DNA from: a virus
Reading direction: 5' to 3' (one strand)
IMG/VR virus record: IMGVR_UViG_3300017757_000076
Coordinates: 1 to 30,310 of that record
DNA: 30,310 bases
Within the stretch, counting starts at the first letter, position 1, and every line of letters begins with the position of its first letter. A program made the position numbers and the translations under genes. Positions 1 to 30,310 of the stretch are shown here, in pieces. The notes under the pieces were generated by a model that was given only the letters and a program-made list of their open reading frames with translations, was not told the DNA's origin and did no database searches.

Positions 1-944
1 ATAGCGTTAAAGAGCTTCCATGCGAAGTTCATGACTATATTTTTGACGATATAAATGTTAACCAACAATCAAAAATTTGGGCGTTTAGCAATACAGAATT
101 TAGCGAAGTTTGGTGGTTTTATCCGTCTGCAAATAGCTTAGAGATAGACAGATATGTTGCATACGATTTATTGGAGGGTCACTGGCTAATTGGCAATCTG
201 TCAAGAACAGGCGGCGTTTCTAGAGGTGTATTTAGAACGCCAGTTTTAAGCGGTGAATATACTGAGAATATAACTTATAATGTAACTGTAGCTGCAAGTG
301 GTGGTGGCAATAAGTATTTTATATCAGATCATTCTGGTGCAGCCCCAACACTTACATTAAGAAAAGGAAACACTTATCGGTTTGACCAATCTGATAATTC
401 TAATATCGGGCATCCATTCCAGTTTTCTACAACGTCAAACGGTACGCATGGCGGTGGTTCTGCTTATAGCACAAATGTCGTAACAACAGGATCGCCAGGG
501 AGCCCAGGAGCTTACACAGAAATAACAGTCACAGATAGCACTCCTTCAACACTTTATTATTATTGCAGTAACCATAGCGGAATGGGTGGAACAGCAAACG
601 TGATAGAGCCTGTTTTAGTTTGGAACCACGAACAGGGTTTAAATTATGATAGCGGTTCAATTTTTTGTGAAACAGGACCGATTTCGATTGGAAAAGGTGA
701 TCAAGTTGCGAAAATCACCGACATTATCCCCGATGAGAAAACACAGGGCGATGTAGATTTAAAATTTAAAACACGATTTTATCCAAATGATACGGAGACA
801 ACCCACGGACCATTTAATCCAAGCAACCCAACTTCAGTAAGATTTACTGGTAGACAATTAAGAATGCGAGTTGAGGGTGACCAGGCTACTGCGTGGCGCG
901 TTGGAACTATGAGACTTGAAACTAAGGCTGGAGGTAGAAGGTAG
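1..944 (+). CDS. P22 gp10-like tail stabilisation protein with inserted cupredoxin-like domain (5' partial)
   Basis: The reading frame is open from base 3, so the gene starts outside the window and about 314 C-terminal residues are visible. The pieces VWWFYPSANSLEIDRYVAYD, ETGPISIG, TQGDVDLKFKTRFYPND and SVRFTGRQLRMRVEGD fit the phage stabilisation family (P22 gp10), a tail accessory factor that plugs the portal-adaptor and carries the tail needle. P22 gp10 is about 470 residues, so roughly half of the core is missing. Between FRTPVLSGEY and VLVWNHEQG lies a foreign block (about 267-605) ending in YYYCSNHSGMGG, which resembles a type-1 copper (cupredoxin) loop. The next gene starts directly after the stop. 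Family assignment is firm; the role of the insert is inferred. Confidence 0.82.
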   Translation, partial: SVKELPCEVHDYIFDDINVNQQSKIWAFSNTEFSEVWWFYPSANSLEIDRYVAYDLLEGHWLIGNLSRTGGVSRGVFRTPVLSGEYTENITYNVTVAASGGGNKYFISDHSGAAPTLTLRKGNTYRFDQSDNSNIGHPFQFSTTSNGTHGGGSAYSTNVVTTGSPGSPGAYTEITVTDSTPSTLYYYCSNHSGMGGTANVIEPVLVWNHEQGLNYDSGSIFCETGPISIGKGDQVAKITDIIPDEKTQGDVDLKFKTRFYPNDTETTHGPFNPSNPTSVRFTGRQLRMRVEGDQATAWRVGTMRLETKAGGRR

Positions 945-6340: not shown

Positions 6341-6559
6341 ATGGAATATATTACTGGACTTTTTATTTATTATGTTGTGGCGAATACAAATGTTTTTACC
6401 GTGATTTGGTATGAAAGCGAAAAGATGTGTCTAGAGGCAATGATAGACAACGGTCCACTTTACATACAATTAGACGCAGAGGCGATGCTCTGCAAAAAAA
6501 CAGACAAAATGAGTAAGGGTGTACCTAGGCCGAAGATACGGCCCGAGGGTGATACCTAG
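6341..6559 (+). CDS. Small hypothetical protein, Cys-containing
   Basis: The frame is open from further upstream, but that part spans the inverted repeat, so I place the start at the ATG at 6341, giving 72 residues. The sequence has apolar strands (GLFIYYVVANTNVFTVIWY), a helix (ESEKMCLEAMIDNG), a strand with DAEAMLCKK and a Pro-rich basic tail. The layout resembles small phage proteins with an N-terminal strand and paired Cys, like the one at 7769-7942. Its stop overlaps the stop of the endolysin gene, convergent. Function unknown. Confidence 0.5.
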   Translation: MEYITGLFIYYVVANTNVFTVIWYESEKMCLEAMIDNGPLYIQLDAEAMLCKKTDKMSKGVPRPKIRPEGDT

Positions 6560-7029
6560 TCTATTTTCTCAAAATGAGGACCGTCCATAAATGGTCTTCG
6601 TGACTGAGAACGTCTAAGGTCTATGTATGCATTCATAGCCTCTTCCATTGTGCCTTCCCACTTACGAATATCCATTGGGTATTTAGCCTGGGGTGTGCCC
6701 CATGAAGCTCCCCAACAAATAGGAACGCCTACTTGTATGGCTGCCTCTTTCATGGCGTCTGCTACATCATCATATACATTGAGCTCCCAGCAAGCTCGTC
6801 CGTTGACGTATGCCATAAGATCGACGGCCTTACCCTCTAAATGTTTAGACTTTAGCGTTTGACTGGCCCCAGAGGCTACGAGCTCCTTCTGTTGTTCGAG
6901 GGTTCTCATGCCTTGAATAACTCCAAAGTCTACTTTTGATAATGTAATAGCCATTTTAACTACGGACTGTAGATCCTCGTCTACACCCTCTAGTCTGTCC
7001 AGGCTGCGTCTGCTTAACTTAAAACTCAT
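6556..7029 (-). CDS. Endolysin, M15-family L-alanyl-D-glutamate / D,D-peptidase
   Basis: Protein of 157 residues. The zinc-peptidase signature of the M15 family (VanY, T5 endolysin) is present: SKHLEGKAVDL supplies His63 and Asp70, and DGPHFE near the C-terminus supplies His152. The upstream SRRSLDRLEGVDEDLQSVVK and IQGMRTLEQQKELV are also typical for phage M15 endolysins. It should cut peptide cross-links of peptidoglycan at the end of infection. There is no signal peptide, so it needs the holin encoded just upstream; the two genes overlap by four bases (ATGA). The length matches compact single-domain endolysins. Confidence 0.92.
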   Translation of the reverse strand: MSFKLSRRSLDRLEGVDEDLQSVVKMAITLSKVDFGVIQGMRTLEQQKELVASGASQTLKSKHLEGKAVDLMAYVNGRACWELNVYDDVADAMKEAAIQVGVPICWGASWGTPQAKYPMDIRKWEGTMEEAMNAYIDLRRSQSRRPFMDGPHFEKID

Positions 7030-17441: not shown

Positions 17442-17822
17442 TTATCTGTTCCTCAGCTCCTGTATGTATAGGCACTCGTTGCATCTATCCTGCATTTGAC
17501 CCTTTTTAATTCCTTTAGATCTAAGCAGCAAAAAATTTCCGCACGCGCATTTACATACCCACATACTTCCGTTGCAATTTTTCTTCGTATTTAAATCTTT
17601 ACCCAGAACGGTTATGCGTCCATTTTTTTTACCCACCATTTCATTATAGAGTTTTCTCTCGTCGCCCAGCGCCGTGTGATCCGATTTTCTAAAATACATC
17701 GGATCCTTGTAGACGTTTTTAAATTCTTTTTTAGGCGTGAAGTGAGTGCCCTTCGATAAGACTACTCTCGCAGCATTACCGTTAATAGGCGTAAAATATT
17801 TATTAGCTTTACTTGTTACCAT
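17442..17822 (-). CDS. Zinc-finger protein, HNH/homing-associated type
   Basis: I placed the start at the ATG at 17822 because GGGAGAA lies just upstream; an ATG at 17858 would place that site inside the gene. The product has 126 residues. The N-terminal part is basic; the C-terminal part has MWVCKCACGNFLLLRS, then DRCNECLY, giving a C-x-C-x-C ... C-x-x-C cluster likely to hold zinc. GRITVLGKDL before it is common in phage proteins with such a domain that accompany homing endonucleases. It is the last gene of the minus accessory island. DNA binding is inferred. Confidence 0.6.
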   Translation of the reverse strand: MVTSKANKYFTPINGNAARVVLSKGTHFTPKKEFKNVYKDPMYFRKSDHTALGDERKLYNEMVGKKNGRITVLGKDLNTKKNCNGSMWVCKCACGNFLLLRSKGIKKGQMQDRCNECLYIQELRNR

Positions 17823-17876
17823 TACAATTCTCCCGGTTGTATAATTTAACTGTAACATAAAAATTTTGCAAATTTA

Positions 17877-18113
17877 CTAGTCGGTAATATTTTTTTTATT
17901 TAATATTTGGATTGCCTCATTTATTTCTTTATCTGACCCGTCAGTTTCGATAATCCTGCCATCGTTTTTATCATAATATCTTTTGTACTTTGGATGCATA
18001 TATCCATTCCAGTCATTATAAAAACTAAATTGCAAATTTTTCTTCTTCTTATTTTTGGCGACGAGCATCCACTCGTCACCATTGTCAATAAATAGAGCGA
18101 AGGTATTTTTCAT
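17877..18113 (-). CDS. Small hypothetical protein of the accessory island
   Basis: Protein of 78 residues, starting inside the last codons of the upstream HNH gene (ATGA-type overlap). It begins MKNTFALFIDNGDEWMLVAK, has a run of Lys (KNKKKKNLQF), an aromatic middle (YNDWNGYMHPKYKRYYDKND) and an acidic helix at the end. No family was recognised. The AT-rich, Lys/Asn-rich coding differs from the replication genes, which suggests later acquisition together with the neighbouring HNH gene. Confidence 0.55.
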   Translation of the reverse strand: MKNTFALFIDNGDEWMLVAKNKKKKNLQFSFYNDWNGYMHPKYKRYYDKNDGRIIETDGSDKEINEAIQILNKKNITD

Positions 18114-18754
18114 ATTTTAGATCCTTTTCTTAAATTATCCTCAGCCCAAAGCGGTTGCAAATTTTTAAAGTTAAAGCACTTTAGCTGATCTTGTTCCTTT
18201 TCTAAGTTAAAAGAGACGCACGGCTTAATGTGGTCAATGTGCCAATCGCCGTAATTTTCCCATGTCATGCCTTGAGTAAATTGTTTCTCAAGATAATTAC
18301 GCAGTTCTGACACTGAGCATCCGACAAGTCGCATAGTCTTAATTGATTTTTTACCTCCCTGATTTTTTATTGCCTCTCTAACTCTTGCACGTAATGACCC
18401 AGCTATTCTGAATGATATATTATTCCTTGATCTATTTGCGTGGTAATTTCTAAAGTATTCTTTCGGCATTTTTATTCTTTGCACCGATCTTTTTTCTTCT
18501 ATTGTTTTTGCGTGCCAATTTTTACTTGATCTGCATTTAGCTGCTTCTCTAAAATTTTTATCCTCCCTGTATCTTTCAGCTCTTCTTTTATTTTCACTTT
18601 CACGCACTTTTTGATTATTACGAATTTTCCAGTTTTTCTTACCGTCTCTATCCGCACAAATCTGGCTGCAAAATTTCTTTTTCCGTCCTAAAGTAAAAAA
18701 GTTATAACAAGTGTGGTAACTGCAAAGAGCTATCATATCTATCATATCTGTCAT
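18110..18754 (-). CDS. HNH endonuclease
   Basis: Protein of 214 residues; GGAGGT lies upstream of the ATG. An N-terminal zinc-knuckle-like part (CSYHTCYNF, then KKFCSQICADRDGKK) is followed by a basic helical stretch, then the nuclease: GMTWENYGDWHIDHIKPCVS with the HIDH catalytic core, and FNFKNLQPLWAEDNLRKGSK as the final N/H part. This is the standard layout of phage HNH enzymes that act as free-standing homing endonucleases or in packaging. Location downstream of terminase fits either; being antisense and AT-rich favours a mobile gene. Confidence 0.88.
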   Translation of the reverse strand: MTDMIDMIALCSYHTCYNFFTLGRKKKFCSQICADRDGKKNWKIRNNQKVRESENKRRAERYREDKNFREAAKCRSSKNWHAKTIEEKRSVQRIKMPKEYFRNYHANRSRNNISFRIAGSLRARVREAIKNQGGKKSIKTMRLVGCSVSELRNYLEKQFTQGMTWENYGDWHIDHIKPCVSFNLEKEQDQLKCFNFKNLQPLWAEDNLRKGSKI

Positions 18755-19817: not shown

Positions 19818-20159
19818 TTACGATTTTTTTTCTTCGTAGTGTAAAATGCGATGACAGTTTGCACACAATATTTTGCACTTTGCGGCTTCCTCATACGCAC
19901 GCTTCCACTGCTTGTGGGATACGTAGTGACTGACTTTTGTATCTCCTTTTGCATCCGGGTGGTGAAAATCAATTGCCGCCGGGTGAGAAAAAGCACACTT
20001 CTCACATCTTAATTTTGATTTGAATTCCCACCATTTTTCTCTGTGCTTCTGGACGTGCTTTTTATTACTCGCTAAAACTTTTTCTCTATTTTCGAGATAC
20101 CACTTCATACCGTAAGATCTGCTGTATGTTTTACGTTTATCTTTATCTTTATACGGCAT
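19818..20159 (-). CDS. HNH endonuclease, small
   Basis: I chose the ATG at 20159, six bases after AGGAG; the longer frame from GTG at 20192 would start inside the -10 box. The product has 113 residues. A basic N-terminal helix (KDKDKRKTYSRSYGMKWYLE) precedes the nuclease: LRCEKCAFSHPAAIDFHHPD, then KCKILCANCHRILHYEE. The two CxxC pairs bind structural zinc and the FHH and CHR motifs form the HNH site. It has its own promoter and may be a free-standing homing enzyme. It flanks the accessory operon on the opposite side from the other HNH gene. Confidence 0.86.
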   Translation of the reverse strand: MPYKDKDKRKTYSRSYGMKWYLENREKVLASNKKHVQKHREKWWEFKSKLRCEKCAFSHPAAIDFHHPDAKGDTKVSHYVSHKQWKRAYEEAAKCKILCANCHRILHYEEKKS

Positions 20160-20183
20160 CATTAACTCCTGCTCTTGGCATTG

Positions 20184-20189
20184 ATTATA
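20184..20189 (-). promoter_or_regulatory. -10 box of the small HNH gene
   Basis: On the minus strand TATAAT, preceded by GTG, lies 25-30 bases upstream of the chosen ATG at 20159. The -35 box is weak (TTTCAA or TTCAAT, 17-18 bases upstream). Its position excludes the GTG at 20192 as start codon. Confidence 0.5.
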
Positions 20190-20242
20190 CACTACCTGGG
20201 AAACAAATTGAAAAAAAAGCTTATTAATGGCACAATATATTT

Positions 20243-23307: not shown

Positions 23308-24498
23308 ATGGCTGTGAAATCTTACCCCGGACCAATGTTTGGACCGTCTTATTCTTTACTGGATCAGATGATGGAAATATCTAGGAGAAATCCTGGAGGA
23401 CCACAATTAATACCTAGAGATACGACTTTTGCAGAGAACATGACTGACCTTCTCACGCCCTATATTGGTAAAGATACGTCAAGAAGAATATTTGGTGGAG
23501 CTAATCCGGGAACCGGATCCGGGGCTTTTGGTCAACCCAAGTCCGGCATTTTGAATTATCTTGATAACGCCGGTTTAGCTAACATCCTACCCTTAACTGC
23601 TGGAGCAATGTCAGGCGGTCAGGCCGTCAAAGATCTTAGAGCTGGTAACTATAGCGACGCCGCAGTAAATACAGGCTTTGCCGGTCTAGATCTTGGGCTA
23701 AGTGGGCTTGGAGCTAAACAGCTATATAAAAATGCACCATTGAGAAATCCTAAAAGACCATTAAAAAATATTACTTTGTCTACAGGCGGTCAATTTGATC
23801 AAAAGCCTAAAGTTGAATACGAGGATGCAGCTCACTTTATGAGAGTAAATGAAATGCTAGGCGATATTATTAAACCACCTTCTTTTACACCTTCAAAGTC
23901 AGCAAAAGCCTCAAGGTTTGATAGATTAGGCGTCCATGTTGGAACTGCTGATCAAGCTAATGATAGATTTAAATTTGCAAGAGATGTAATGGAAAAAGAA
24001 GAGGGTATGACGCTACCTTTAAAAATAAGAACGGACAAGCCATTTGAAATTAAAGATTTGAAAGAATTTGGCATTAAACCAGATTTAAGATTTGACATGA
24101 CAGAAGTTATAGACGGTAAAACAGTTTTAACAGAAGACGGCGTTAAGGAAGTTATGAACGCATACGCTGACGCAAAAAATGTTGATTTGGATACAGGTGT
24201 AGATTTATTTAGAAAAGAACTAACCGATAAAGGATACACTAATATTCCTTATATTAATCTTGTAGAGGGCATGGATAACAGCGCAGGAGGCGTCATGGAA
24301 ACATATTTACGTGGTATTGATGCTCCTTTCACAAAAGAAAACATAAGCAACATTATGTTAGTTGACAGAACTATTAAAGACCCGGCGGTAATAAAGAGCC
24401 GATTTGCAAAATTTAAAGACGTATATGATCCAAATATAATGGCTGGTCTAGCTGGCCTTGGCCTGTTATCGCAAGTAGAAAATGAGGAAGGCGAGTAA
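23308..24498 (+). CDS. ADP-ribosyltransferase-like polyvalent protein
   Basis: I prefer the ATG at 23308 over TTG at 23302; 396 residues. The N-terminal 140 residues are Gly/Ala-rich (GLANILPLTAGAMSGGQAVK). The C-terminal half resembles ART domains of polyvalent phage proteins: GVHVGTADQANDRF (His210), LPLKIRTDKPFEIKDL, then DKGYTNIPYINLVEG, and IMLVDRTIKDPAVIKSRFAK before YDPNIMAGLAG. The last block mirrors the ART ending '...iKSrFakFdp...ilAgl'. If active, it would attach ADP-ribose from NAD to host proteins after ejection, as T4 Alt does. Glu and Tyr of the catalytic triad are not certain. Confidence 0.68.
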   Translation: MAVKSYPGPMFGPSYSLLDQMMEISRRNPGGPQLIPRDTTFAENMTDLLTPYIGKDTSRRIFGGANPGTGSGAFGQPKSGILNYLDNAGLANILPLTAGAMSGGQAVKDLRAGNYSDAAVNTGFAGLDLGLSGLGAKQLYKNAPLRNPKRPLKNITLSTGGQFDQKPKVEYEDAAHFMRVNEMLGDIIKPPSFTPSKSAKASRFDRLGVHVGTADQANDRFKFARDVMEKEEGMTLPLKIRTDKPFEIKDLKEFGIKPDLRFDMTEVIDGKTVLTEDGVKEVMNAYADAKNVDLDTGVDLFRKELTDKGYTNIPYINLVEGMDNSAGGVMETYLRGIDAPFTKENISNIMLVDRTIKDPAVIKSRFAKFKDVYDPNIMAGLAGLGLLSQVENEEGE

Positions 24499-24499
24499 G

Positions 24500-26629
24500 A
24501 TGGAAAATGAAATAAACGAACTCGTGCAAGAGCTGGAAGCTGAACTCGATCCTAACATTATGGACGATGAGGAGCTGAAAGGCATCGTAGGAAAAGAGAT
24601 AGACGACGCAATTGATTTTATTGATAACTGGGTATCTCCGTTACGCGCCACAGCAACTGAATATTATCGAGGCGATCCCTTTGGCAATGAAGAGGCCGGT
24701 AGATCTCAAATTGTAAGTATGGATGTCCGGGATACCGTGCAGGCCATCATGCCATCCTTGATGCGTATTTTTAATTCTACTGAGAATACGGTGGAATACG
24801 CGCCTCAAGGCCCTGAGGACATAGAGGCTGCAAAGCAGGCGACGGATTATGCCCGGTACGTTATCAACAGAGATAACGACGGTTTTTTGCAGATGCACGC
24901 AGCCTTTAAGGATGCGTTAATTCGTAAAGTAGGCGTATTAAAATGCTACTGGGATGATCAGACAAAATTTGAGACGCACGACTGGACCGGGTTAGACGAT
25001 AATGCTCTAGCTGCTCTCATGTCAGACGCTGACGTTGATGTGCAAATACAAGCATCTGAGCCGGTTGGTGAACCTATGATGGATCCGATGACGGGCGAAA
25101 TTTTACCGCCTCCGATGGTGCACTCAGTTAGGGCAACCTACACGCACCCGGACGGGAGAATTAAGATGGAGGCCGTGCCACCTGAGGAGTTCCTAATTTC
25201 ACGGGAAAGTAAGTCATTAGATCAGGCGTCATATATTGGTCATCGTCGAGTTGTGACAGTATCAGAACTTGTGGCTATGGGATACGACTACGACGTCGTA
25301 TCAGACGCCGGGGCAAATTACGACGACATGGAAAGCAATATAGAGCGATACACTAGGAATAAATCTTTAACTAGTGAAATGAGTGAACGTAACGATCCTG
25401 CAATGAAAAAAGTGCTATATGTCGAAAGTTACATAAAAGTAGACTACGACGGAGATGGCATAGCAGAGCTAAGAAAAATTTGCTCTGTAGGAGACGAGAG
25501 CGTCATTTTAATGAACGAGCCGTGTTCAGTCGTTCCATTCGCAGTATTCTGCCCGGACCCAGAGGCACACGACTTTTTTGGAATGAGTGTCGCTGACGCC
25601 GTCATGGATATACAAAAAATTAAATCTTCTATTATGCGTAATACTCTAGACAGTCTTTCAATGTCTATTCACCCACGCATGGCAATTACCGAGGGTATGG
25701 TTAATTTAGACGACGCCATGTCAACTGAAGTTGGGTCCATAATCCGCCAGAGGCAAAACGGAGCCGTTCAAATGCTCAGTATGCCATTTGTCGGCCAACA
25801 GGCATTCCCGGTCTTAAAGTATATGGATGAGCTTAAAGAGGCTCGTACAGGCATCTCTAAAGCCTCAGCAGGGCTCGACGCTGGAGCCTTGCAGTCTTCA
25901 ACGGCGGCAGCCGTTAACGCCACTGTGAGCGCCGCACAGCAACACATAGAACTAATTGCGCGTGTATTTGCCGAGACTGGTATGAAGCAGCTATATAGAA
26001 TTGTTCTACATTTATTAACCACGCACCAAGACGCGCCTCGAATGGTTAGGTTGACTAATAATTTCGTGCCGATAGATCCCCGTACTTGGAATAGTAATAT
26101 GGACGTGTCTGTCCGTGTCGCTCTTGGGCGTGGCACAGACACTGAGCGTATGATGATGCTCAAGCAGATTGGCGAAATGCAAAAAGAAGCAATGCAGACT
26201 ATGGGAGCTGTAAACCCACTGACTGACATTAATAAGCTTTCCAATACACTGAAGGCTATGACTGAGCTTGCCGGGTTTAAGGATACTTCTCAATTCTGGA
26301 GTGACCCGGCGCAATTTAAAGCGCCTCCAAAAGAAGATAAGCCAGATATTAATGAGCAGCTTATTTCCGTTCAAATACAGCAGATACAGGCTGACATTCA
26401 GAAGAAGGCGGCGGAACTTAATTTAGAGCGCGATAAAATGACAATGGAAGATGACCGTAAGAGAGATGAGCTTGACGCCGATTTGTTTGTAAAAGCTGAA
26501 GAAATGAAAGCTAAATACGGAACACAATTAAACGTAGAAAAAATTAGGTCAGAGCTAGCGATAAATCGTGAAGTTATGAAGGCTCAGGCTGAAGTTTTAA
26601 AAGGTGCTGTAGATGATAAAGAAAACTAG
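24500..26629 (+). CDS. Portal protein, P22 gp1-like
   Basis: ATG at 24500, just after the stop at 24498 and preceded by GAGGAAGG; an ATG at 24482 in the frame would overlap the previous gene. The product has 709 residues, close to P22 gp1 (725). Landmarks: MDVRDTVQAIMPSLMRIFNS, TDYARYVINRDNDGFLQMHA, VGVLKCYWDDQT and PCSVVPFAVFCPDPEAHDFF are typical of this portal family. The C-terminal 100 residues are a charged coiled coil, like the barrel helices of P22. It forms the dodecameric DNA channel and the packaging motor dock. Confidence 0.94.
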   Translation: MENEINELVQELEAELDPNIMDDEELKGIVGKEIDDAIDFIDNWVSPLRATATEYYRGDPFGNEEAGRSQIVSMDVRDTVQAIMPSLMRIFNSTENTVEYAPQGPEDIEAAKQATDYARYVINRDNDGFLQMHAAFKDALIRKVGVLKCYWDDQTKFETHDWTGLDDNALAALMSDADVDVQIQASEPVGEPMMDPMTGEILPPPMVHSVRATYTHPDGRIKMEAVPPEEFLISRESKSLDQASYIGHRRVVTVSELVAMGYDYDVVSDAGANYDDMESNIERYTRNKSLTSEMSERNDPAMKKVLYVESYIKVDYDGDGIAELRKICSVGDESVILMNEPCSVVPFAVFCPDPEAHDFFGMSVADAVMDIQKIKSSIMRNTLDSLSMSIHPRMAITEGMVNLDDAMSTEVGSIIRQRQNGAVQMLSMPFVGQQAFPVLKYMDELKEARTGISKASAGLDAGALQSSTAAAVNATVSAAQQHIELIARVFAETGMKQLYRIVLHLLTTHQDAPRMVRLTNNFVPIDPRTWNSNMDVSVRVALGRGTDTERMMMLKQIGEMQKEAMQTMGAVNPLTDINKLSNTLKAMTELAGFKDTSQFWSDPAQFKAPPKEDKPDINEQLISVQIQQIQADIQKKAAELNLERDKMTMEDDRKRDELDADLFVKAEEMKAKYGTQLNVEKIRSELAINREVMKAQAEVLKGAVDDKEN

Positions 26630-27888: not shown

Positions 27889-28851
27889 ATGGCTATAACT
27901 ACCAATACGTTCACATCCTTTGACGCCAAAGGTATTCGTGAGCAATTATCTGACGTAATTTCGTCAATTTCCCCCGAAGAAGTCCCACTGCAAAGTAACC
28001 TTGGAAGCGTCAATGTTTCTAACACATATTTTGAGTGGCAGACTGACTCATTAAACGCTGTTTCAAAAACGCCGAGAGCTGATGGCGATGATGTTGGAAA
28101 CACTTTCGACAGTACATCTGCAACAACTCGCGTCGGTAATTATACGCACATTTTGCGTAGAACAGCTATCGTTGCCGACAACCTATCTGACCAGTCGTTG
28201 GCCGGAAGATCGGATGAAATGGCGATGCAATTGGCGAAGCGAGGACGAGAACTTCGCAGAGACTACGAGGCAGTTTTCACGGATAATAATGCCGCCGTTG
28301 CCGGGAACTCTTCTACACCACGGGAAACCGCTGGCTTAGGTGCATGGATTGCAACTAACGACATTATGGGTACTGCTGGTAGCCCTGCAAGTCCAACTGG
28401 TAACGGAACCGATGCTCGTACTGACGGGACCCAAAGGGTCTTTACTGAGGCTATGTTAAAAAGCGCAATGCAGTTAGCATTTACCGCTGGCGGTAAGCCA
28501 TCAATAATGATGACTGGCCCGTTCAACAAAACCAAAGTATCAGGCTTTGCTGGTATTGCTGCACAGCGCTACATGGCTCCAAGTGATGGTCCAACTACGA
28601 TTATTGGGGCTGCTGACGTTTATTTGAGCGATTTCGGTAGCTTATCCTGTGTAGTTAACCTTTTTCAAAGAGAAAGGGACTGTTTTCTGTTAGACCCAGA
28701 GTTAGCAGAAATCGCTGTTCTACGTCCTATCCAGACCGTTGATCTAGCCAAAACTGGTGACGCAACCAGAAAAATGGTTCTCGGCGAGATGGGCTTACAG
28801 GTTACTAATGAAGCCGGACACGCAGGCGTGTTCGATCTTACAGTATCATAA
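27889..28851 (+). CDS. Major capsid protein, SU10-type HK97 fold
   Basis: Protein of 320 residues; TAGGAGG precedes the ATG. FTSFDAKGIREQLSDVISSI, SPEEVPLQSNLG, TYFEWQTDSLNAVSKTPRAD and RVGNYTHILRRTAIVADNLS match the SU10 major capsid family (HK97 fold). The region MAMQLAKRGRELRRDYEAVF covers the spine helix. The length is usual for the family. It forms the capsid shell. A perfect 10-bp hairpin follows the stop by 6 bases, likely raising mRNA level of the capsid gene over the genes downstream. Confidence 0.93.
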   Translation: MAITTNTFTSFDAKGIREQLSDVISSISPEEVPLQSNLGSVNVSNTYFEWQTDSLNAVSKTPRADGDDVGNTFDSTSATTRVGNYTHILRRTAIVADNLSDQSLAGRSDEMAMQLAKRGRELRRDYEAVFTDNNAAVAGNSSTPRETAGLGAWIATNDIMGTAGSPASPTGNGTDARTDGTQRVFTEAMLKSAMQLAFTAGGKPSIMMTGPFNKTKVSGFAGIAAQRYMAPSDGPTTIIGAADVYLSDFGSLSCVVNLFQRERDCFLLDPELAEIAVLRPIQTVDLAKTGDATRKMVLGEMGLQVTNEAGHAGVFDLTVS

Positions 28852-28920: not shown

Positions 28921-29220
28921 ATGAAAAGATTATGGAGCCATGATCCAGCAACCGGGATTAAAAAGTACTGGCACGTAACTGGCAAGGGTGAGTATGTCGT
29001 TGAGACAGTTATGGACGTTAAGCCAATTGTGGAGGCTAATAAAAAGCAAAGAAATAACATGGATAAGAGACATAAGGACGTCAATAAAGTTGCCTCAATA
29101 CCGCTTCCAATATACTACGAGCTAAAGCGTAAGGGTATCGCTGACGATCCTAAGGCATTATTTAAGTGGCTAAACGATAGCGATAATGCCTGGACCAGAA
29201 CAAGAGAAAGCACGCTATGA
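28921..29220 (+). CDS. Small conserved-type protein between capsid and adaptor
   Basis: Protein of 99 residues. KRLWSHDPATGIKKYWHVTG and GEYVVETVMDVKPIVEANKK, then IPLPIYYELKRKGIADDPKA and LFKWLNDSDNAWTRTR, form a pattern I recall as highly conserved in marine podoviruses just downstream of the capsid gene. Beta-hairpin N-terminus and helical C-terminus. A minor head or connector protein is the likely role, by location. No catalytic motif. Its stop overlaps the adaptor start by four bases. Confidence 0.76.
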   Translation: MKRLWSHDPATGIKKYWHVTGKGEYVVETVMDVKPIVEANKKQRNNMDKRHKDVNKVASIPLPIYYELKRKGIADDPKALFKWLNDSDNAWTRTRESTL

Positions 29221-29837
29221 GTATTGCAAACTATACCGACTTAAAAAGTTCGATAGCAGATTTTTTAAATCGTGATGATCTTACTTCAGTTATTCCTGAT
29301 TTTATAACTCTAGCCGAGGCCGATATGAATAGACGCCTCAGGCACTGGAGAATGGAGACCCGTAAGGTAGCTCTCTTAGATACTCAATACACAGCTTTCC
29401 CACTAGATTTTATCGAGGGCATACGCCTGATGTTGACGGGTACTACAGAATTCAGAATGGAGCTGATAACTCTCAGCGAGTTAATGGACAAAAGATCTCA
29501 AAGTAATGCCTCAGGAACTCCACGATTTTATGCATCTGTCGATGGAGCTTTTGAAGTTTACCCGACGCCAGATCAAGACTACACACTTGAGATGCTTTAC
29601 TACGAAAGAATAGAGGCATTAAGTAGTAGTATTGCAACAAATTGGGTTTTGACTTATTACCCAGATATTTACCTTTATGGGGCTTTAACGCACAGTGCTC
29701 CGTACTTAGGTGAAGACGCCAGGACGAAAGTCTGGGCAGAGTTGTATCAAAACGCGATAAGTGGTACAAACATGGAAGACCAACAGGCCAAGTCTAGCGG
29801 ATCAGGCCACAGAATGAGAATTAGGAGTTTTGGATAA
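29217..29837 (+). CDS. Head-tail adaptor, P22 gp4 / SU10 adaptor-like
   Basis: Protein of 206 residues. IPDFITLAEADMNRRLRHWR, GIRLMLTG, LSELMDKRSQSNASGTPRFY and LEMLYYERIEAL match the adaptor family that extends the portal channel and closes the filled head in podoviruses (P22 gp4, 166 residues). The C-terminal tail (SSGSGHRMRIRSFG) is flexible and would thread between portal subunits. It overlaps the previous gene by 4 bases and abuts the next one directly. Confidence 0.86.
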   Translation: MSIANYTDLKSSIADFLNRDDLTSVIPDFITLAEADMNRRLRHWRMETRKVALLDTQYTAFPLDFIEGIRLMLTGTTEFRMELITLSELMDKRSQSNASGTPRFYASVDGAFEVYPTPDQDYTLEMLYYERIEALSSSIATNWVLTYYPDIYLYGALTHSAPYLGEDARTKVWAELYQNAISGTNMEDQQAKSSGSGHRMRIRSFG

Positions 29838-30281: not shown

Positions 30282-30310
30282 ATGGCAAAACTTTTTAACA
30301 GAGCCAAGAT
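30282..30310 (+). CDS. Virion gene start, 3' partial (nine codons)
   Basis: ATG preceded by TAGGAG starts MAKLFNRAK and is cut by the window end. 'MAKLFNRAK' is the usual opening of a marine-phage protein that follows the small beta-rich protein, in phages where the gp10-like gene comes shortly after. Joined directly to base 1 it would stop at once, so part of the genome is missing between the ends. Confidence 0.6.

Follow-up and report, generated by a model that had tools for sequence, protein, structure and literature searches.

A mobile cupredoxin-like domain with a predicted type-1-like copper site in the tail nozzle protein of a short-tailed phage

The tail nozzle protein encoded at the beginning of the window, i.e., the whole stretch of 30,310 nucleotides of viral DNA analysed here (IMG/VR record IMGVR_UViG_3300017757_000076), carries a cupredoxin-like block of 119 residues that is a true insertion in the nozzle, gained or lost repeatedly. 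The inserted domain is a widespread mobile module of marine phages and is not peculiar to the nozzle gene. From its sequence and its modelled fold, in which four residues are placed as the ligands of a type-1 copper site, the insert quite likely binds copper. On balance, we prefer to read the insert as a surface module that can be exchanged, is probably adhesive and bears a predicted type-1-like copper site.

In cells, cupredoxins are known to carry electrons or to form domains of oxidases. What is new here is a cupredoxin that has kept all of its ligands and serves as a mobile module of the virion, found in the tail parts of phages that infect Synechococcus, Prochlorococcus, Pelagibacter and Methylophilales. 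No report of cupredoxin domains in phage structural proteins was found in the literature covered, which included few subscription papers and no bioRxiv preprints.

The nozzle gene and its insertion

The genes and gene parts on which the analysis rests are the following:

3-944, plus strand: tail nozzle protein (P22 gp10/SU10 gp17-like), 3′ part of the gene, 313 aa (phrog_3287, 7.1e-25)
3-254, plus strand: nozzle upstream of the insert (alignment with all orthologues)
255-611, plus strand: cupredoxin-like domain insert, 119 residues (orthologue linkers of 2-5 residues; AF2; Foldseek)
612-944, plus strand: nozzle downstream of the insert (alignment with all orthologues)
24482-26629, plus strand: SU10-type portal protein (PF23899, 5.9e-206)
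27889-28851, plus strand: SU10-type major capsid protein (PF17236, 3.2e-80)
29217-29837, plus strand: SU10-type adaptor (PF24175, 1.9e-33)

Frame +3 is open from position 3 to 944, with the stop codon at 942-944, and its 5′ side is open at the contig end. Since complete nozzle orthologues, such as that of locus L006, have ~615 aa and the contig starts within the gene, the TTG at 171, from which the original prediction had counted its residues, was ruled out as the protein start. In sequence comparisons of the full-length L006 orthologue with solved nozzle chains, the closest relatives were the nozzles of Pseudomonas phage Pa223 (9nwi_Y, 3.3e-20) and Vibrio phage VP1 (8zkm_E, 3.4e-13; also 8zkk_O), while Foldseek matched its model to P22 gp10 (8u10, 1.3e-8) and SU10 (1.9e-12) and further to tail chains of Pam1, P-SCSP1u and T7. 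These sequence and fold matches to solved nozzles place the protein among the P22 gp10/T7 gp12-type nozzles; thus, its earlier description as a gp10-like tail plug was right in kind, with Pa223 and VP1 as its relatives by sequence and P22 gp10 by fold. The portal, capsid and adaptor genes, all of SU10 type, make up a short-tailed-phage gene set in the window. The nozzle is a hexamer sitting on the adaptor both in SU10 (PMC9509320) and in P-SCSP1u (PMC10575957). Past the adaptor region, the contig breaks off at 30282-30310, just after the start of an ORF (MAKLFNRAK); from this and from the contig start inside the nozzle gene, it follows that both ends probably lie close to each other in the genome.

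Presence of the block was followed in 80 nozzle orthologue loci collected using the C-terminal (downstream) flank alone, a sample therefore blind to the insert. An insert of 111-130 residues was found at the site in 34 of these loci, and the remaining 46 presented a linker of only 2-5 residues, so that more than half of the sampled homologues lack the block whose presence among gp10 homologues the original prediction had wished to see checked. The insertion that it had placed at 267-605, with about 110 residues, was thus upheld as such, and its extent was corrected to 255-611. Close pairs of loci revealed that the difference is a clean DNA insertion: between L014 and L018, one with and one without the insert, the left flank is 98.2% identical over 886 bp up to the junction, and in L037 and L044 the flanks on either side of the inserted DNA are 91% and 96% identical. 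When the state of the site was placed on a quick nozzle tree from which the insert had been left out, it switched 10 times; 8 of these changes are required by branches with good support. A single origin of the nozzle insert is unsupported, given at least eight forced changes on this quick tree. The alternative that the block is integral to the nozzle fold and its insertion only apparent is practically untenable and was ruled out, since nothing beyond the single window sequence speaks for it, orthologues without the block are common (46 of 80) and the same domain is present in unrelated tail proteins.

In six loci (L021, L025, L027, L032, L043 and L055), the domain was found also or instead nearer the N-terminus of the nozzle, within a large extension. 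The cupredoxin-like domain is followed in the L021 and L032 extensions by a stretch resembling tail fibres (phrog_9370).

The fold of the insert was predicted with an AF2 model built on 48 relatives, which was all-beta, with nine strands and a mean pLDDT of 94.6. The best 50 neighbours of this model in the PDB were nearly all cupredoxins or enzymes with cupredoxin domains, with a Foldseek probability of ~1.0, and included rusticyanin, copper nitrite reductase (CuNIR), pseudoazurin and two-domain laccases; TM-scores were modest (~0.4-0.56) and identity in the structural alignments was ~20% or less. As judged from the nine predicted strands and these neighbours, the insert is predicted to have the fold of the cupredoxin superfamily, in agreement with what had been proposed from the sequence. 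In the model of the whole L006 nozzle, of medium quality overall (pLDDT 69), a confident insert stands between low-confidence junctions (pLDDT <50 at 369-382 and 512-523), a pattern that fits a tethered domain.

Profile searches with Pfam and NCBIfam returned no model above its cut-off for the insert. For PF00127 (Copper-bind), whose cut-off is 21.2 bits, the insert scored 16.4 and the whole protein 13.6; for the NCBIfam plastocyanin model (TIGR02656), the insert scored 14.6 against a curated cut-off of 87.85 bits; and the amicyanin model (TIGR02657) gave no match to the insert. Membership in these three families was therefore rejected, and the domain should be annotated neither as amicyanin or plastocyanin nor as a PF00127 protein; the likeness to amicyanin and plastocyanin that had been pointed out holds for the fold and for the placing of the ligands, not for family assignment. 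The Ig-like families Big, I-set and FN3 did not match the insert in the profile search either, and a sequence-profile search found no solved structure already containing the domain.

Putative copper ligands

The four predicted ligands correspond to the following codons, with their frequencies in an alignment of 89 copies:

411-413, plus strand: His, predicted N-terminal copper ligand (IGHPF); column 49, His in 88 of 89
564-566, plus strand: Cys, predicted thiolate ligand (YYYC); column 100, Cys in 87 of 89
573-575, plus strand: His, predicted second His ligand; column 103, His in 87 of 89
582-584, plus strand: Met, predicted axial ligand; column 106, Met in 85, Gln in 3 and Tyr in 1 of 89

Counted from the TTG at 171, these residues are His81, Cys132, His135 and Met138, which agrees exactly with the motif and with the number of His81 that had been read from the sequence. 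The spacing of the amicyanin copper loop is Cys-x2-His-x2-Met, as in the insert, and one branch of nozzle inserts presents Cys-x2-His-x3-Met. In the model, His54 lies just ahead of the strand 56-59, Cys105 closes the strand 100-105, and His108 and Met111 are found in the loop preceding the strand 113-118; hence, the type-1 pattern His...Cys-x(n)-His-x(n)-Met/Gln occupies its canonical positions relative to the predicted strands. With rusticyanin, pseudoazurin, plastocyanin and amicyanin, the insert shares the predicted beta barrel, the His ahead of a mid-domain strand, the Cys ending the last-but-one strand and the Cys-x2-His-x(2-3)-Met loop, but these small blue-copper proteins are free electron carriers, whereas the insert is a module inside large virion proteins.

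Among 200,000 shuffled versions of the insert, only 58 contained the pattern H-x(35-70)-C-x2-H-x(2-4)-M, and a chance motif was ruled out by this result together with the conservation of the ligands. The alignment covered 119 columns and 89 copies, free of redundancy and drawn from both viral and cellular contigs; the four ligand columns ranked 2nd, 3rd, 4th and 7th in conservation. The full set was found in 84 copies, with Gln replacing Met in three more, all from marine cellular genomes (L179 and L174 among them), and His-Cys-His-Met was present in all 60 non-redundant viral copies. Some scans used patterns that held parts of the motif, which may have inflated ligand conservation in those scans; the blind nozzle sample is therefore the cleaner test, and both its inserts and the copies found by tblastn in named phages are independent of such patterns. 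In the blind sample, each of the 28 distinct inserts (mean identity 63%) retained all four ligands, and the His and Cys codons of the nozzle inserts changed only synonymously, with CAT and CAC for His and TGC and TGT for Cys all present. Among the named phages, the set was intact in 12 of 13 domain copies, including the diverged ones of P-SCSP2, P-SSM2, HTVC028P and the S-RIM2 baseplate connector. In this way, the presence of four putative type-1 ligands, as originally predicted for one tail protein, was found to extend to most copies of the domain.

A few copies depart from this pattern. Cys and His were both lost in two of the 89 copies (L187 and L189), in which the sequence signal of the domain is retained, and in one copy from S-RIM2 Cys, His and Met are all missing; therefore, the metal is not always needed. 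The exchange of Met for Gln is a known one at the axial copper position, as found in stellacyanins, and both this exchange and the joint loss of Cys and His are ways in which metal sites change.

The strongest rival reading, which we consider unlikely, holds that the domain is a metal-free beta-sandwich, a spacer or adhesin of Ig-like type derived from a cupredoxin, with Cys, His and Met retained for packing. The copies without Cys and His would suit it, but a free Cys and two His would be odd residues to retain for packing, few positions are as invariant as the four ligands while most others vary, and the Met-to-Gln change is a known one for axial copper ligands. Phage tails often carry inserted Ig-like domains that bind no metal (PMC9022992), and such insertions also occur in the SU10 nozzle (PMC9509320), which gives this reading its precedent. 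Indeed, the Ig-like tail domains (Big_1/Big_2, I-set and FN3), described as mobile additions to phage tails, are, like the insert, exposed beta-sandwich modules on varied structural proteins (PMC9022992), but a conserved set of transition-metal ligands is absent from these families, whereas the insert is of the cupredoxin type. SU10 gp17 likewise carries extra beta domains inserted in a beta-propeller nozzle protein, namely four Ig-like domains whose rearrangement lengthens the tail (PMC9509320); the nozzle insert is a single cupredoxin-like domain, and its site is left empty by many relatives.

Spread of the domain beyond the nozzle

When the insert was used in a tblastn search, matches were found in 246 of 50,697 phage records, mostly from Synechococcus and Prochlorococcus phages and also from Pelagibacter and Methylophilales phages. 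The matched proteins are annotated as tail fiber, baseplate wedge tail fiber connector or hypothetical protein, and the domain, now hidden under labels such as 'tail fiber' and 'hypothetical protein', would gain a name. Three tandem cupredoxin-like domains were observed in one tail fibre protein of 801 residues (L126:3998-5065), and a lambda-J-like protein (L150) has one copy close to its C-terminal end. A structural search of BFVD returned 71 matches to the insert at E up to 0.001. Fold matches in that database also included short 'beta-sandwich proteins' from Pithovirus- and Marseillevirus-like uncultured genomes (A0A481Z6J5, A0A481YVH3 and A0A481Z7Q7).

In marine bacterial genomes, the domain was found within large proteins together with Ig-like, cadherin, FG-GAP or RTX domains, with giant carriers in Bacteroidetes and SAR86 (L164:715-12291, L179:2023-6294 and L187:1858-11718). 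This domain company in bacteria and the trade of the domain among unrelated tail proteins suggest a module for adhesion or decoration.

Possible roles of the domain and its metal

In the reading preferred here, a loop of the nozzle carries an extra, exchangeable cupredoxin domain, each with an intact predicted His-Cys-His-Met type-1 copper site. By analogy with the ring of six subunits in the nozzles of solved relatives, up to six such domains per virion might stand out from the nozzle ring on flexible linkers. Since virions assemble in the cytoplasm, which offers little free copper, the domain would probably be made as an apoprotein and take up copper only after lysis. The bound copper would then stiffen the module, which may act as an accessory adhesive or decoration domain aiding the hold of the tail tip on the host envelope, a role pictured like that proposed for Ig-like domains in other phages. 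Whether the domain is adhesive at all is an even call. Among the possible uses of the copper, a structural-only role was rated the likeliest, above those of receptor bait or redox centre, because close relatives manage without the domain. The original prediction had offered a folding module displayed on the tail, a host-adhesion domain or a true copper site, and the findings favour the last two together. A bolder version, in which virions of marine phages bear working type-1 copper centres on nozzles, fibres and connectors and use the copper in host recognition or entry, as a copper parallel to the Trojan horse proposed for iron, with the module exchanged between unrelated tail proteins, seems rather unlikely.

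Somewhat more doubtful than the metal-free reading is a copper Trojan horse, in which copper would serve as bait and the loaded tail domain would be recognised by a periplasmic copper protein or by a receptor for copper or metallophores in the outer membrane of the host. An analogous proposal has been published for iron in tail fibres with HxH motifs, at which iron was seen in T4 gp37 and predicted in phage R22Y (PMC11705849). These fibres resemble the insert in that a transition metal is seen (T4) or predicted (R22Y) in a tail part, but theirs is octahedral iron held by pairs of His in fibre trimers, whereas the site predicted here would hold copper through Cys, His and Met within a folded domain. 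The location of the domain on nozzles and fibres, and carrier phage records from hosts of metal-poor seawater, would agree with a bait; nevertheless, no receptor is known, and the domain is also found in bacterial surface-type proteins and in proteins that need no receptor contact, such as connectors and the nozzle.

It is very improbable that the copper site transfers electrons or senses the redox state of the envelope, for instance by triggering nozzle opening. Type-1 sites do act as electron carriers, and the Met-to-Gln variants would retune the potential, but neither a redox partner nor another redox domain was found in the carrier proteins, and the presence of the domain switches between close relatives, so that nozzle opening cannot generally depend on it.

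If copper is bound as the preferred reading predicts, marine phage particles would be a copper ligand so far uncounted, and the reason for a copper site in the tail could be tested in the cultured phages P-SSM2, S-TIM5, HTVC028P and P-SCSP2. A blue-copper fold in marine cyanophages has a precedent in petE (plastocyanin), listed among cyanophage auxiliary metabolic genes (PMC10436341), but its product is a soluble metabolic protein, whereas the insert lies inside structural proteins.

Elsewhere in the window, three Cys/His-rich ORFs were observed on the minus strand (17442-17858, 18110-18754 and 19818-20192), the last two of which, downstream of the terminase gene, resemble HNH endonucleases by eye. 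An ORF at 6556-7029, also on the minus strand, resembles an endolysin of the M15 peptidase type, likewise as judged by eye only.
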